Assembly (NCBI RefSeq): GCF_000173355.1
Contig: NZ_ABXA01000014.1
Coordinates: 1-32,461 of the forward strand
Origin: Anaerococcus hydrogenalis DSM 7454
Lineage (GTDB): Bacteria; Bacillota; Clostridia; Tissierellales; Peptoniphilaceae
Reading direction: 5' to 3'
Length of the DNA: 32,461 nt
Shown piece by piece: positions 1 to 29,478 of the stretch. Below the pieces are notes generated by a model. It was not told the DNA's origin. It worked only from the letters and a program-made list of their open reading frames with translations, and did no database searches. The position numbers were made by a program, and so were the translations under genes. How positions within the stretch are numbered: the stretch's first letter is position 1; every line of letters begins with the position of its first letter.

Positions 1-296
1 TATCTGTTTTACATTTCTAAACTTAAGGCTTGGCAAAATCTTTTCATTTTAATGGATTTATTACACTTACAAAAACCTTCATTTACTAAACTAATTAAGA
101 TAGGAATATGATAAATTTCTGTTGCTTCCATAACAATTTTTACATCTTCATCTAAAGATTTAATTTTACCAATTAATCTATTTACATCATTTTTTACATG
201 ATAAATATTAAATGGTTTAAAGATAAGTTCTTTTCCAAATCCTAAGGCTGCAACTGTGCTTTTAGATTTTGATACATCAATTCCTATTGAAATCAT
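1..296 (-). pseudogene. IS110-family transposase, N-terminal part, frameshifted
   Basis: The protein starts with the RuvC-like DEDD fold of IS110 recombinases: GIDVSKSKS with the first catalytic Asp, then the VMEATEIYH segment carrying the conserved Glu. The start at 296 is preferred over the ATG at 308 because GGAGG (302-306, minus strand) lies a few bases before it. After residue ~76 the frame is lost: VSVINPLK is readable in another frame at about 61-80, the frame then returns to read MKRFCQALSL, and is lost again near 20. Each break fits a small deletion in a T or A run. The gene runs off the window at base 1. The family call is secure; whether the breaks are real decay or sequence error cannot be told here. 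Confidence 0.75.
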
Positions 297-317
297 AAAT
301 ACCTCCATTAAATTTTT

Positions 318-508
318 ACCTACCTACACAATTATCCACTCAGTTTAGCTCGTTACACGGGTGTATTAACCCAACCTGCTTAATCGAATTCTTGATAATG
401 AAAGGTAGCGGACTGTTTCGAGTACGGGTGTATTATCCCAAATGGGCTGCGTCCGTTACCTTCATTATATTAAAAAAAGTGTAGGTAGAAAGTTTTTTCT
501 ACTTACAC
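318..508 (-). ncRNA. Candidate IS110 bridge RNA / structured leader
   Basis: Immediately upstream of the IS110 transposase, the minus strand can fold into a 5' hairpin (508-479, arms 499-508 and 479-488 plus flanking bases), then a long hairpin with an 18-bp stem (arms 451-468 and 395-413, one bulged A, one wobble) around a 37-nt loop. Position 479-488 is also perfectly complementary to 320-329, so an enclosing stem can compete with the 5' hairpin. A 17-nt motif occurs twice, at 424-440 in the long hairpin loop and at 357-373 downstream (16 of 17 identical). Size and position match the bridge RNAs known from IS621-type IS110 elements, which carry a target-binding and a donor-binding loop. The fold is seen; the bridge RNA function is inference. 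Confidence 0.5.
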
Positions 509-520
509 TTTTATGGTACT

Positions 521-554
521 AAATGGATGAAAATTTAGTTTGTCAATAGTCTGA
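521..554. repeat. Copy of a dispersed-element end (inverted relative to 3701-3734)
   Basis: The 34 bases are the reverse complement of 3701-3734 with two differences. In both places the end reading TCTGA abuts a terminator hairpin followed by a T run. It therefore looks like one end of the same MITE-like family, into which the IS110 element may have inserted. Confidence 0.7.
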
Positions 555-3699: not shown

Positions 3700-3956
3700 A
3701 TCAGACTGTTGACAAACCAAATTTTCATCCATTTCGAGCGAACGTAGTGAGTCGAGAAATCTCATGAGATCTCTCCATGCGTTCGTTTCACTCACACTAA
3801 AACATATTTGCTACGCAAACTTTTTCATGCTTTCGCACTTAGTTTTAGGGATAAATATGCCAAATCAAGGCATATTTATCTAGTCGAGATGGTACTTAGC
3901 TTAATTTTTATTTCGAAATAAAATATTAGCTAAATTCATACTTTGTCTACGCTCTG
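3700..3956. mobile_element. MITE-like multi-hairpin dispersed element
   Basis: A 257-bp non-coding insert bounded by the 16-bp duplication. The ends are imperfect inverted repeats: TCAGACTGTTGACAAA at 3701-3716, matching 13 of 16 bases of the reverse complement of the right end. Inside are several hairpins: a perfect 12-bp stem at 3850-3861/3869-3880, a near-perfect palindrome at about 3898-3935, and the CGAGCGAACG...CGTTCG region around 3735-3790, which resembles dispersed repeats seen in many genomes. No ORF of note. A second copy of one end lies at 521-554. Confidence 0.7.
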
Positions 3957-3982
3957 AGAAGGAGTAATCCTTCTTTTTTTAT
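3957..3982 (+). terminator. fni: Rho-independent terminator (originally of fni)
   Basis: GAAGGA-GTAA-TCCTTC followed by TTTTTTT. It is now separated from fni by the 257-bp insert, so fni transcripts would carry the insert as a 3' UTR. Confidence 0.75.
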
Positions 3983-4035: not shown

Positions 4036-6582
4036 ATGAAATCTTATAAGAAAATTGCTATTGGGTTTGGTATAGGCTTGCTTGTCATTTTAGTTTTTTA
4101 TTTTGGAAAAGGTTTTTTAAATTTAGGACCTAAAAGGGATAAAAATTCAAAAAATCCAGATGTTATTTTGAGTAACAATAAAGAGAAAAATAGTAATTCT
4201 AATAGCAAGGCTAAGGCAAAATATATTGAAAAAAGAGTTTCTATGAAAGAAAATTACCCACAAAAAAGTCAAAAGTTAGAATTTTCTGATAAGAAAAATT
4301 TCTTTACAATTCCAGGAAAAGAAAACATAAAAGAAGATAATTTTGGAGAATATGTTGATGGTGAGATTTTAGTTGATGTAGACTTGGATAAGTTTGATGA
4401 AAAAATATTTGATAAGTACGGGGCAAAAGTAATAGGAAAATGTGACATTTGGGGTGGTTATCAAATTAATATTCCAAATAAATCTATAGATGAGCTAGAA
4501 AAAATTGCTGAGAAAATTAAAAAAGAAGAGGGAGTAGTGGTTTCTAGAGTTCATTGGTTGATTCCAGTTGGAATAAATGAATCGTATCCGGATGATAATT
4601 TCAAAATTGGTAAAAAGAATTTTGATAAAAATAATTTATGGGATGGTTATGATTTAGATAAAGGATTTGATAGAAAAAATAAAATTAGTGAAGATGATCC
4701 TTATTGGTCATATAAAATAACAAACTTATCATATATGTGGAAAAATCTTGATTTTAAAGAAGAATCTCATGTTGGAGTATTTGAAAATGGAAAAATAGGA
4801 ACCAGTAAAAACAAGGATACATTTATAGAAAAAGATTTAGACTTTCAAAATTTAAATACTCAAGTCATTGAAGATGAAAATAAAAGATCAAAGTCAGAAA
4901 AGTTCTATAAAGAAGCAACAAAAGATATGAAAATTCATACATATTTAGTTTCTTCAATATTAGCGGCGAGACATAATAATTTAGGATTTAGTGGTGTAGG
5001 TAAAGATACAAAAGTATATCCTACTGTTTTTGATTTTAGTATTTTTCCATACTTGTTGGCATATAGGATAGATAATTCAAGTAATCAAATAAAAATATTT
5101 AATTTAAGTTGGGGATATTTAAAAGAAGTTCTATATTACTTAAATACAGATAAAGAAAATATAGAAAAAGATTCTAAAAGCAAGAATAGGACTTTGCGTA
5201 GAATTGCGAAGTTCGGGCTAAGATCAGAGGGCAGAAATCAAAAACAATATTATAGAAGATTTCAATTATATCTTAGAGATAATTCTATGGTATATAATGT
5301 AGCTTTAAAGAAATTAAAAGAACAGGGCAAAGATTTTTTGATAGTAAATTCAGCAGGTAATGAAGGGGAAATAATAAGAGATATTGAAGAATATTCTGAT
5401 GTAGAGATAAAGAAAACAACCTTTTTTGAAGAAGTAGATGATGATATTAAAAAAAGAATAATAATTATTGGAGCTTCAAAGCCAGAAATAAATAAAAATG
5501 GTAAAACTATTTTTTTGGAAAGACTCAACTACTAGAAATTTAGATATTGTAGCACCTGGTAATAATGTACCTGGATATGATGAAAATGGTAAATTGATGT
5601 TGTGGGATGGAACATCAGCTTCTGCTCCTTTTGTAGCAGGATTGGCAGCAAATCTTTATAGTGCCTATCCTGATAAAATGAATGGTGAATTGGCAAAAGA
5701 ATTAATAGTTAAGTCTGGAAATATTGATGTAATAGATGAATTTAATGGTGAAAATTCAAAACTTGTTGATGCAAAAAAATTAACTGACCTTGCTAAGGAA
5801 AAATTTGAAGAAAAAAAAGAGGATAAGAAAGATCAAAAGAAAATTAATAGAAAAATTATTAGGGAAAATAAAAAGATGATAATAAAGGAAATTTAGAGCA
5901 AATTGAAAATGTGCCTTCTAATCAAAGTTCTAATAAAGATCAAGAAAATCCTCCAAGTGCTAGTAATGATGAAAATCTTTCTAAAGATAAGACCTATAAA
6001 GTAATTCAAGATGGAAAAGACCAAGGAAAAATTTCCATTTTGGATATGGGAGATGCTTATTTTATAGATGTGGATAAGTTAGATGAAATTTATTTTTCAG
6101 ATTCGCCTTATTTAACAGATCCTGAGTATTCTAATATTGCAAATAAATACAAGAAAATTTTAGCAGAAAATCAAGGAAGGCATATAAAAGAAAATTCTGA
6201 CGGAACCTATTATTTTGGATTATTTCCTGGAAATATAGATGTTTCAGAAAATATCCCTAATTATGCCTACCAATATTTTCCAGATTATGGGGTTTTCGCT
6301 TTTGCAAGATATGATTATATGAAAGAAGATAAGGTATGTTTTCTACCAAGTAAATATGCAGGGGTAATTCTTGATGGAAAATTATATGTAGATTCAAATT
6401 GGCTAGCTTGGTCGTTTGGTTTTGAATTGGATTATACAATTGATTCTAAAAATAAAATTTTTAAATATAGTAGAGAAGGTCACGATATTGGCCAAGAAGG
6501 AGTAGATTATATAAATATTTCAACAGAAAATTATGGAGATATTTATGAATTATTGGATGATAATTTTGAAAAAATAAATTAA
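4036..6582 (+). pseudogene. Membrane-anchored subtilase-like (S8) protease, split by two frameshifts
   Basis: Read through the two breaks, this is one protein of about 848 residues. Residues 7-25 form a membrane anchor, followed by a charged linker, a prodomain-like region (~100-185) and the S8 domain. The His segment HTYLVSSILAA (H301), the oxyanion Asn in SAGNEGE (N442) and the Ser motif GTSASAP (Ser codon 5615-5617) are present, but the catalytic Asp position reads VFENG with E250. The frame breaks at a T7 run (5510-5516; one T too many) and at A5 (5870-5874; one A too few); the three frames join cleanly. The C-terminal 200 residues include a segment like the copper amine oxidase N-terminal (stalk) repeats, as found on surface proteins. 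Function if intact: extracellular proteolysis. Decay and sequence error are both possible. Confidence 0.8.
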
Positions 6583-18856: not shown

Positions 18857-18895
18857 TCGCAAAATTTTCTAAAATGGCTTAATTACAAGCTATAA

Positions 18896-18995
18896 AGAGA
18901 ATGAAAAATGGCTACTGGTACTCAAATGGTACTGGAAGTAAAAAAGAATAATTAAAATAATAGTTCCAAGTGGTTTACATTTGGACAAAAAATTA
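18896..18995 (+). repeat. Direct repeat D, left copy (gene 3' end plus flank)
   Basis: About 100 bp matching 29185-29284 with few differences. In one frame both encode the same C-terminal peptide, KR-M/I-KN-G/S-YWYSNGTGSKKE followed by TAA, and then share about 45 bp of non-coding 3' flank ending ACATTTGGACAAAAAATTAG. No upstream ORF belongs to it, so each copy is the leftover end of a lost gene. The copies lie 10.3 kb apart around the accessory genes. Confidence 0.75.
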
Positions 18996-19007
18996 GACCG
19001 TAGTTTC

Positions 19008-19067
19008 AATGGTTCTATAATAAATGTTGGGATCAACCTAGACTCCAATATTTATTGTAGAACCATT
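19008..19067 (+). other. Long imperfect hairpin between guaA and the ATPase gene
   Basis: Arms 19008-19031 and 19044-19067 pair over about 24 bp with two or three mismatches or wobbles, with a 12-nt loop. No T run follows directly. It may stop guaA readthrough or be a small repeat unit. A minor inverted repeat (AAATCT/AGATTT) follows at about 19079-19096. The rest of 18857-19145 is AT-rich without genes. Confidence 0.5.
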
Positions 19068-27700: not shown

Positions 27701-27948
27701 GATTTACTATTCATTAGTGTTTCAGTAGGAAAATCACTGTTAGGCAAATTCTCTTATGGTCATAAATTACGTAGTTCACGCAGTAAAAATTTTTAATGAA
27801 ACTTCCTTTAAATAATGATAAAATAGATTGGACCTATATGGAAACTCTAACACAGGCTATTAAAAAACTTGTAATTAAAGATCTTGTTTTATATACAGAT
27901 CAAAAGATATCCGCTAGTAAAAAAGTTATTGCTAATAATAAGGAGTGA
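27701..27948 (+). pseudogene. C-terminal fragment of a probable restriction-modification protein
   Basis: Frame 1 reads VGKSLLGKFSYGHKLRSSRS then KNF and stops at 27796; frame 2, from 27796, reads MKLPLNNDKIDWTYMETL, then KKLVIKDLVLYTDQKI and stops at 27948. One extra T in the T5 run before the ATG would join them. The combined sequence resembles C-terminal parts of restriction endonuclease/specificity proteins (SYGHKLRSSR and the VIKDLVLYTD-K helix), recalled, not searched. Nothing of the N-terminal part is present. Confidence 0.4.
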
Positions 27949-27952
27949 AAAA

Positions 27953-29085
27953 ATATCAAATAACAATTTTGAAGTATTAAATGAATCAGAAATCCGTGGA
28001 AAAATTATTGTAAGGACGAGTATTATTGGAATAATAACCAATGTTTTATTAGCGGTCTTCAAGGCAATACTTGGGGTTTTGGTCAATTCCATTGCCTTAA
28101 CCCTTTATGCTGTTAATAACTTGTCTGATGCTCTTTCTTCTCTTGTAACTATCATAGGAGAAAAATTTGCAAGCAAGGCTCCAGATAGAAAACATCCCAT
28201 GGGTTATGGAAGGATTGAATATATTTCTTCAATGATCATAGCTGCTCTTGTCTTATATGCTGGAATCACTTCTCTAGTAGAGTGTGTTAAAAAATTATCA
28301 ACCCAAGCCCCGCTTCCTACGCCAGGCTTTCTATTTTTGTAATTGGTATTGCTGTTGTAGTGAAGTTTTTCTTAGGAAACTATGTCAAAAGACAGGGAAA
28401 AAAAGTAAACTCAGGAGCTTTAATTGCATCTGGGTCAGATTCACTATTTGATTCAATTCTTTCACTTTCTGTTTTTCTTTCTGCCATTGTTTTTATGGTT
28501 TTTGGACTTTCTCTCGAATCTTATGTAGATCTTGTCATTTCTGTATTTATGATTAAAGCAGGAATAGAAATGATTCTTTCTACTATTGATGATTTAATTG
28601 GTCATAGATCCGATCCAGAAATGGTGAAAAAGATTGAAGACTTAGTAAAAGAAGAAGACCCTGTAATTGGAGTATATGACCTTGCACTTTTTAATTATGG
28701 TCCTAACAAATATTACTGCTCTCTTCATGTTGAGCTTCCAGACCATATGGATGTTGATGAAGTAGATAAACTTACAAGAAAATTACAATACAAAATCTAT
28801 AAAAAAACTGGTATTATCTTGATTGCTTTAGGTGTTTATTCCTACAACACAAGGGACAAGGAAGATGGAGAAATTAGAAGAACAATTGAAAGAAAGATTA
28901 TGAATCACGATTGGGCTCTCCAAGTTCATGGATTTTATATAGACAAAAATAATAAAAGTATTAGGTTTGATGTTATCTTGAGTTTTGATGTGGAGAGAGA
29001 TGAAGCATTAAAAGTTATTGAAGAAGAAATTTCTAAACTTTATCCTGATTACAAAATACAAATTGTTCCAGATATTGATTTATAA
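27953..29085 (+). pseudogene. Cation diffusion facilitator (CDF) efflux transporter, frameshifted
   Basis: Inner-membrane metal/proton antiporter. The SD AAGGAG (27940-27945) precedes ATA at 27953, where ATG would be expected. Residues then give the CDF core: NNLSDALSSLV with metal-site Asp, the KHPMGYGRIEY loop, and after a break SGSDSLFDSILSL, a second membrane site with Asp-x-x-x-Asp rather than His-x-x-x-Asp, which suggests Mn or Fe over Zn. The frame is lost near 28298: frame 1 ends at 28342, while the other frame reads SPASYARLSIF then VIGIAVVVKFFLGNYVK. One extra T restores about 377 residues, ending in the cytosolic ferredoxin-like domain. It is followed by no terminator. Confidence 0.85.
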
Positions 29086-29184
29086 TTATAGGTCACTGAG
29101 TAGGAAGCACTTTTTTTATTTTATCACTGAATGCCCCCCAATTACAAAGAAATTTTCAAGTATGATATAGACACACTCAAACGC

Positions 29185-29284
29185 AGAGAATAAAAAATAG
29201 CTACTGGTATTCAAATGGTACTGGAAGTAAAAAAGAATAAATTGAATAATTCTTCCAAATACTTTACATTTGGACAAAAAATTA
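29185..29284 (+). repeat. Direct repeat D, right copy, interrupted by a MITE
   Basis: Matches 18896-18995; same C-terminal peptide KNSYWYSNGTGSKKE-stop and flank. The MITE at 29285 begins where the shared flank ends. Beyond the MITE, CACAAATGTAAAG can pair with CTTTACATTTG of the repeat, so the MITE sits in what was the loop of a hairpin. 29086-29184 otherwise shows nothing. Confidence 0.75.
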
Positions 29285-29478
29285 GGGGCTGTTGCAGAAT
29301 GAATAAATTGTACCAATATCATTAGATGAACCTCCACGGAAAGTCTCACTAGGCCGACGGGCTAATATAGCCTCCATCATCTGGTAGGCGCCGATCGGCC
29401 CACCGGACAGGAGAGGTAAAATTTCCTAATAGAAGCTTCTAACGATGGTGCGATAATTATTCATTTTGCAACAGCCCC
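29285..29478. mobile_element. GC-rich 194-bp MITE with 22-bp terminal inverted repeats
   Basis: The left end GGGGCTGTTGCAGAATGAAT plus AA matches the complement of the right end (29457-29478) at 21 of 22 positions. The interior is clearly more GC-rich than all surroundings and holds small hairpins (GGCTAATATAGCC, GCCGATCGGC). No full ORF; the minus strand has a coding-like stretch ending MMEAILARRPSETFRGGSS. No target duplication is evident. The ends resemble those of IS1182-type elements, which is recollection only. Confidence 0.75.

Follow-up and report, generated by a model that had tools for sequence, protein, structure and literature searches.

In the parts of PMC11208160 and PMC11208158 that were accessible, the bridge RNA of IS621 from Escherichia coli is placed in the left end of the element, upstream of the recombinase gene, and begins with a 5' stem loop. 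The accessible parts of PMC11187229 describe seekRNAs, in which non-coding regions adjacent to the transposase genes of ISEc21 (IS110 type) and ISEc11 (IS1111 type) guide insertion; the RNA of ISEc11 is downstream of its transposase gene, and both systems use a circle with a junction promoter. For ISPpu9 of Pseudomonas putida, two small RNAs regulating the transposase are reported in the accessible parts of PMC8450116.

The window analyzed in this study is a stretch of 32,461 nucleotides from Anaerococcus hydrogenalis DSM 7454, whose positions 1–523 are, on the minus strand, the left portion of an IS110-group insertion sequence. Judged from its sequence and by analogy with IS621, the leader of this element is very probably a bridge RNA gene (probability roughly 0.94), for which circle formation, transcription, RNA binding and recombination would proceed as in IS621. 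The element boundaries, the empty sites, the guide–target and guide–donor matches, the covariation and the catalytic residues in intact relatives were observed directly. The leader can be regarded as a well-supported new example of the IS110 bridge RNA, a kind of RNA that is already known, although its discovery is recent.

The element and its recombinase gene

The features of the locus are as follows.

524–554, minus strand: left part of the target repeat, MITE-like, with the inverted end TCAGACT
521–523, minus strand: TTT with the TT core, left element boundary (filled versus empty sites)
513–518, minus strand: TACCAT, predicted -10 at the joined right and left ends (homologues; the -35 would be supplied by the right end, which is not in the window)
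477–510, minus strand: 5' hairpin of the bridge RNA, then seven T (folding)
337–468, minus strand: bridge RNA core with its two loops, matching model R1 over the full length (E 2.8e-16)
451–468, minus strand: target-loop stem, 5' strand (covariation, folding)
440–446, minus strand: left target guide CCCATT and one linker T (guide parsing)
426–439, minus strand: target-loop apical hairpin GGGATAATACACCC, inside the repeated motif (sequence, covariation, folding)
416–422, minus strand: right target guide CTCGAAA, which pairs with TTTCGAG (guide parsing, comparison with contig C13)
395–413, minus strand: target-loop stem, 3' strand (covariation, folding)
373–380, minus strand: left donor guide AGCAGGTT, the same sequence as at the right end of sister copies and at the right ends on contigs C13 and C24 of the window's own genome
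359–372, minus strand: donor-loop apical hairpin GGGTTAATACACCC, inside the repeated motif (sequence, covariation, folding)
344–348, minus strand: right donor guide CTAAA, complementary to TTTAG at the left end
338–342, minus strand: donor-loop basal stem, 3' strand, with the partner 385–389 (covariation, folding)
320–329, minus strand: GTGTAGGTAG, just upstream of the ribosome-binding site, a possible pairing partner of 479–488, the 3' arm of the 5' hairpin (sequence, homologues)
1–296, minus strand: 5' portion of the IS110 recombinase gene, truncated where the contig ends (alignment; PF01548, E 1.5e-9)
3703–3957, plus strand: an empty target repeat, CATCCATTTCGAGCG, also inside the window

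The recombinase gene starts with the codon at 296–294 and reads to position 1, and positions 297–523 constitute the left end of the element. The initial annotation had assigned the leader to an IS110 element without naming the strand; the match of the gene fragment to PF01548 (DEDD domain) and the model match upstream of the gene bear out this assignment on the minus strand. An intact relative, L042, matched PF01548 at E 2.4e-28 and also possessed the C-terminal PF02371 domain, upstream of which the window copy is cut. The catalytic residues D11, E60, D102, D105 and S241 of IS621 were invariant in 5 of 5 aligned relatives, whose serine aligned with S241. Unlike in the IS1111 group, whose bridge RNA belongs to the right end and follows the transposase gene, the model match here was upstream of the gene.

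The recombinase frame of the window copy stops at about 95 codons because of two small deletions, which the alignment with six A. jeddahensis copies revealed. Moreover, no intact recombinase of the window's subgroup was seen in its own genome, where the pieces on contigs C26, C24 and C13 contained stops or were at contig ends. Given that the transposase is frameshifted, the guide could work only with a recombinase from another source, and the window copy could be a relic or be mobile solely with a recombinase supplied in trans. The comparison thus supports the initial interpretation of the leader as a bridge RNA, with the correction that the transposase frame of this copy is broken. Elsewhere in the window, a subtilisin-like gene (4036–5896, plus strand) and a cation-efflux-like gene (27884–29085, plus strand) also seemed to be split into adjacent frames, as judged by eye from the reading frames.

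By DNA similarity, 15 of the 31 genomes of the genus, including its own, matched positions 1–535 of the window, several with short matches only, and the scan gave 34 loci. Two of the genomes were those of A. jeddahensis SB3 and A. marasmi. More homologues were found in Peptoniphilus, Helcococcus, Streptococcus halichoeri, Ruminococcus and a Lachnospiraceae bacterium as well as in Clostridium hydrogenum, Anaerovorax and Tissierella. In the family, 21 of 130 genomes had model matches at E 0.001 or better. The element was present at three places in its own genome, of which one, on contig C50, belonged to a sister subgroup. The left guide of this sister copy (L010, about 74642–76100), CGTCTTTT, was identical to its own left flank, its C-terminal part continued in another frame, and a tRNA-like sequence was noticed by eye past its right end. 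L045 and L046 of A. jeddahensis, 135 and 202 bp long, are copies with internal deletions that had lost most of the leader and gene; they retained both element ends and were in the same target repeat.

Insertion sites and the target repeat

The filled sites of A. jeddahensis read YCCA-TTT-AGTAC...CCTAGCAGG-TTT-CGA, and the empty sites read YCCATTTCGASCG. Complete copies were 1,558–1,560 bp in length. Comparison of the filled with the empty sites revealed specific insertion around a short core, TT within TTT, which is typical of the IS110 group. The empty repeat pattern was found 7 times in the window's own genome, 18 times in A. jeddahensis and 6 times in another Anaerococcus genome (G002), and not in A. 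marasmi; the reversed pattern was found 0 times, versus 31 empty target repeats in the three genomes. The DNA similarity scan found no full copy of the window's subgroup in G002.

Every copy of the window's subgroup with readable ends was inserted in one repeat type, which is dispersed, about 168–257 bp long and has inverted ends. In the window (3701–3973, plus strand) and in L006, L160, L161, L163 and L164, the repeat resembled a MITE, with the inverted ends TCAGACTGTTGACAAA and TTTGTCTACGCTCTGA. The flanks of the repeat often duplicated a whole hairpin, which in the window was GAAGGAGTAATCCTT on both sides, followed by seven T. Inspected by eye, the hairpin-forming sequence was the same on both sides in 7 of the 11 empty copies printed, partly so in 2 and not in 2. 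It is as if the duplicated target of the repeat were a terminator hairpin of variable length. Two matches to SpR18 (RF02446), a Streptococcus sRNA family, were also identified in the window, at 18882–19015 (plus strand, 107.1 bits) and 29173–29302 (plus strand, 67.3 bits), and are possibly another dispersed element.

Contig C13 starts with the end of a transposase gene, followed by CCTAGCAGGTT and then TCGAGCGAACG. The repeat on C13 ends beside GCATTCTAGATTAACTAAGAATGC, which is nearly the hairpin flanking the left side of the window. From these sequences, we infer that C13 is the other half of the window's insertion.

Structure and covariation of the leader

After a 5' stem loop, the left end of the element has two further stem loops, each with an internal loop, which is the arrangement expected of a bridge RNA. 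Each loop is ordered as left guide, apical hairpin and right guide, the layout reported for IS621. The long stem noted initially, 395–413/451–468, does pair, with one bulge, around a 37-nucleotide loop at 414–450. The 17-nucleotide motif ACGGGTGTATTAWCCCA likewise occurs twice, at 357–373 and 424–440, with 16 of 17 positions identical. However, this motif was rejected as the guide, because it covers the apical hairpin between the guides and the sequences that match the flanks lie to its left and right.

The direct repeat (18 nucleotides with at most one mismatch) was longer than any found in 300 dinucleotide shuffles (0/300). The minus-strand RNA from 510 to 330 folded at a z score of -4.45, and 0 of 200 shuffles were equally stable. 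For ungapped inverted repeats (14 pairs with one mismatch permitted), 3 of 60 shuffles reached the observed count; thus, the long stem without its bulge is not clearly beyond chance alone, and it is the covariation that establishes the stem.

A covariance model of the two-loop part was built from 19 well-aligned sequences, all from outside the window's subgroup, followed by re-alignment. This model recovered the window at 337–468 on the minus strand with the E value listed above. The resulting alignment comprised 63 model matches, or 39 distinct rows, and leans toward the structure to which it was fitted. Among the distinct homologue rows, 96.4% of the pair cells were standard, and 12 of the 32 pairs had changes on both sides, compared with a shuffle mean of 5.8 (0/500 shuffles), in agreement with the proposed stems. 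When the partners were slid, pairing fell to 35–49%. Although the alignment is biased to the structure, both controls, shuffling and sliding, were far below the observed pairing.

Owing to a small misalignment in a plain MAFFT alignment of 28 sequences, RNAalifold failed to recover most of the target stem. A search of the window with Rfam at the gathering threshold found no IS110 RNA. IS621 (L111), one of the 39 sources searched with our model, gave no match up to E 1. The model also weakly matched the opposite strand of many leaders (best E 2.9e-5), as expected of a hairpin-rich sequence.

Guides, targets and donor ends

On the RNA strand, CCCATT and the linker T precede the first apical hairpin and CTCGAAA follows it, so that this loop specifies CCCATTTCGAG. 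In the second loop, AGCAGGTT, identical to the element right end, precedes the hairpin and CTAAA follows it. At the window's own site, the left flank TCCATT fits the guide CCCATT at 5 of 6 positions, and the right flank TTTCGAG fits at 7 of 7, provided that C13 is the other half.

The guides of 24 Anaerococcus elements, a set that omits L045 and L046 with their internally deleted leaders, L049 and the elements without a right end, fitted their own flanks better than swapped guides did (left 108/168 versus 67.4, right 116/144 versus 78.2; p 5e-5), and a one-base slide cut the fit to 76/62 and 73/46. A broader set was derived from the 63 model matches, of which 61 remained without the unparsed L009 and L158 and 49 had both flanks; L157 is the same locus as L106 and was counted once, leaving 48 elements. 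The right ends of L096, L104 and L105 were set by a second pattern, and the Ruminococcus rows with both flanks were retained, in which the left guide seems one base out of register. In this set, which covers more genera, the fits were 199/336 versus 125.8 for swapped guides on the left and 236/288 versus 151.4 on the right, and none of 20,000 swaps was as good, a count that does not represent independent trials because the elements are related. The same was true of the 27 distinct guide pairs (0/20,000). At the fixed register, the left target guide did not fit in C. hydrogenum (L096, L104 and L105) or Ruminococcus (L091–L094).

In several lineages, the donor guides tracked the element ends. 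The left ends TTTAG, TTTGG, ATTGG and TTGT met matching right donor guides, and right ends AACAGG met left donor guides AACAGG. The misfits were L106 (AATAGGTT) and L095 (GGCAGGTT), both compared with AGCAGGTT, L058 (GGTA versus GGTT) and L143, whose right donor guide did not fit its own left end. The expectation that loop bases would match target and donor DNA was borne out, and the matches changed along with the flanks and ends.

These matches bear on whether the leader is merely a regulatory 5' untranslated region that limits translation or transcription of the transposase, as in ISPpu9, without any guide role. In favor of this, the leader is structured and separates the element end from the ribosome-binding site, the accessible parts of PMC8450116 report a translation-inhibiting 5' untranslated region for ISPpu9, and the hairpin arm 479–488 has two possible partners. 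Regulation alone, however, fails to explain loop bases that match both target and donor and change with both, and is very improbable as the sole role of the leader, in which regulatory and guide roles may coexist. Also very improbable is that the matches reflect descent rather than guidance, the copies having spread with one target while their loops stayed alike. The copies of the window's subgroup with readable ends are indeed all in one repeat type, but 43 elements outside this subgroup, from 22 genomes and with varied guides and unrelated sites, still fitted their own flanks (178/301 versus 125.2 and 212/258 versus 149.3; 0/20,000). In addition, the Anaerovorax element (L098) has an AT core in its target, its donor, both target guides and the right donor guide; only its left donor guide keeps TT.

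Junction promoter and alternative pairing

In most elements, the joined ends would provide TTGACT or TTGATT, 17 bases and TACCAT or TACTAT, a promoter predicted by sequence fit only. Compared with the host-left junction, the score of the joined ends was higher in 41 of 48 elements, equal in 2 and lower in 5. In L044 of the window's subgroup, the host repeat provides TTGACA, 17 bases from TTTAGT, which outscores the junction and lacks the A of a good -10.

The arm 479–488 pairs at 9 of 10 positions with 499–508 and at 10 of 10 with 320–329, and the initial annotation had taken this as a sign of alternative folds. The complementarity does recur in homologues: in 9 of 11 representatives, no other part of the leader pairs better with the arm than the 3' segment does. 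The controls, however, were mixed. Shuffled segments were as good in 0 to 7 of 300 cases for seven representatives and in 27, 45, 54 and 74 of 300 for the other four. Own pairs exceeded swapped pairs (p 0.016, without correction for relatedness), and in only one case was the own partner the top-ranked of the 11. Furthermore, the two partners of the arm resemble each other, so that complementarity to one partly implies complementarity to the other. Although seven T follow the 5' hairpin, it was rejected as a classical intrinsic terminator, since a consensus scan of 290–620 called only the hairpin at 553–581.

In addition to its guide role, the leader might be a bistable switch in which the 3' arm of the 5' hairpin pairs with the 5' arm in the guide RNA or with 320–329 in the transposase messenger. 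The best-partner ranking, the swap comparison and the IS621 copy read, which lacks the segment and has its start codon directly after the bridge RNA, speak for such a switch; the shuffles of the four representatives, the relatedness and single first rank behind the swap comparison, the resemblance between the two partners and the terminator scan speak against it. On balance, we consider the switch unlikely.

Terminator-type insertion sites

A hairpin of -6 kcal/mol or better ending at the T-run of the insertion site was used as a proxy for a terminator. It was found at 28 of 51 sites of elements outside the window's subgroup and at 81 of 854 TTT sites in their upstream flanks (Fisher p 1.4e-14); the control sites share the loci of these elements and are not independent. 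By family, the proxy was found at 27 of 40 sites in the window's family and at 1 of 11 in the others. The left guides outside the window's subgroup often resembled a stem arm plus U-tract, such as GGGTCTTTT, GGCTGTTTT and GGTGCTTTT. The target repeat of the window's subgroup was also often at terminator-type hairpins; thus, both this subgroup and the elements outside it tend to land behind genes.

A tentative explanation, to which we give somewhat less than an even chance, is that a bridge RNA lineage centered in the Peptoniphilaceae evolved many target loops that read the ends of intrinsic terminators (stem arm plus U-tract, then TTTTATG-like), so that insertion would land behind genes with little harm. 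The window's subgroup would get there indirectly, via the MITE-like repeat at terminator hairpins. The leader would, in addition, contain an alternative fold, recurrent among homologues, by which it may alternate between guide RNA and transposase messenger. Our literature search, which left subscription papers and preprints mostly uncovered and is weak in this respect, found no report of terminator-aimed IS110 guides. Should such guides hold up, they would illustrate how an element guided by RNA can aim at a functional class of sites instead of a single sequence, and the contrast of varied target loops with almost constant donor loops shows how the guides of bridge RNAs evolve.

Comparison with known systems

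By analogy with IS621, the joined ends of an excised circle would rebuild a promoter, from which an RNA of about 170–180 nucleotides would be made. The first internal loop would pair with both target strands, CCCATT on the left and TTTCGAG on the right, overlapping at the TT core, and the second with the joined element ends, AGCAGGTT on the right end and TTTAG on the left end. The recombinase bound to the bridge RNA would then insert the circle into the dispersed Anaerococcus repeat.

Similar to IS621, as described in the accessible parts of its reports, the first internal loop is for the target and the second for the donor, each with a left guide, a stem loop and a right guide; a core is common to the guides; the junction carries a promoter in IS621 and a predicted one here; and the catalytic residues are DEDD plus S241. 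Different from IS621, the protein is only 26–28% identical, the core is TT instead of CT, both loops have short apical hairpins of about four pairs, the targets differ, and about 35 extra bases, with a segment complementary to the 5' hairpin, precede the start codon.

Similar to the seekRNA systems of the accessible parts of PMC11187229, a non-coding region adjacent to the transposase gene would provide the guide, and a circle with a junction promoter is proposed; the host group and the targets are different, and so is the position of the RNA compared with ISEc11. Similar to ISPpu9 in the accessible parts of PMC8450116, the element is inserted in extragenic repeats and has a structured 5' untranslated region before the transposase gene. 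To these systems, the elements of this study, one lineage of which has an AT core, add natural guide–target pairs that can be read from the genomes and compared with the insertion sites.
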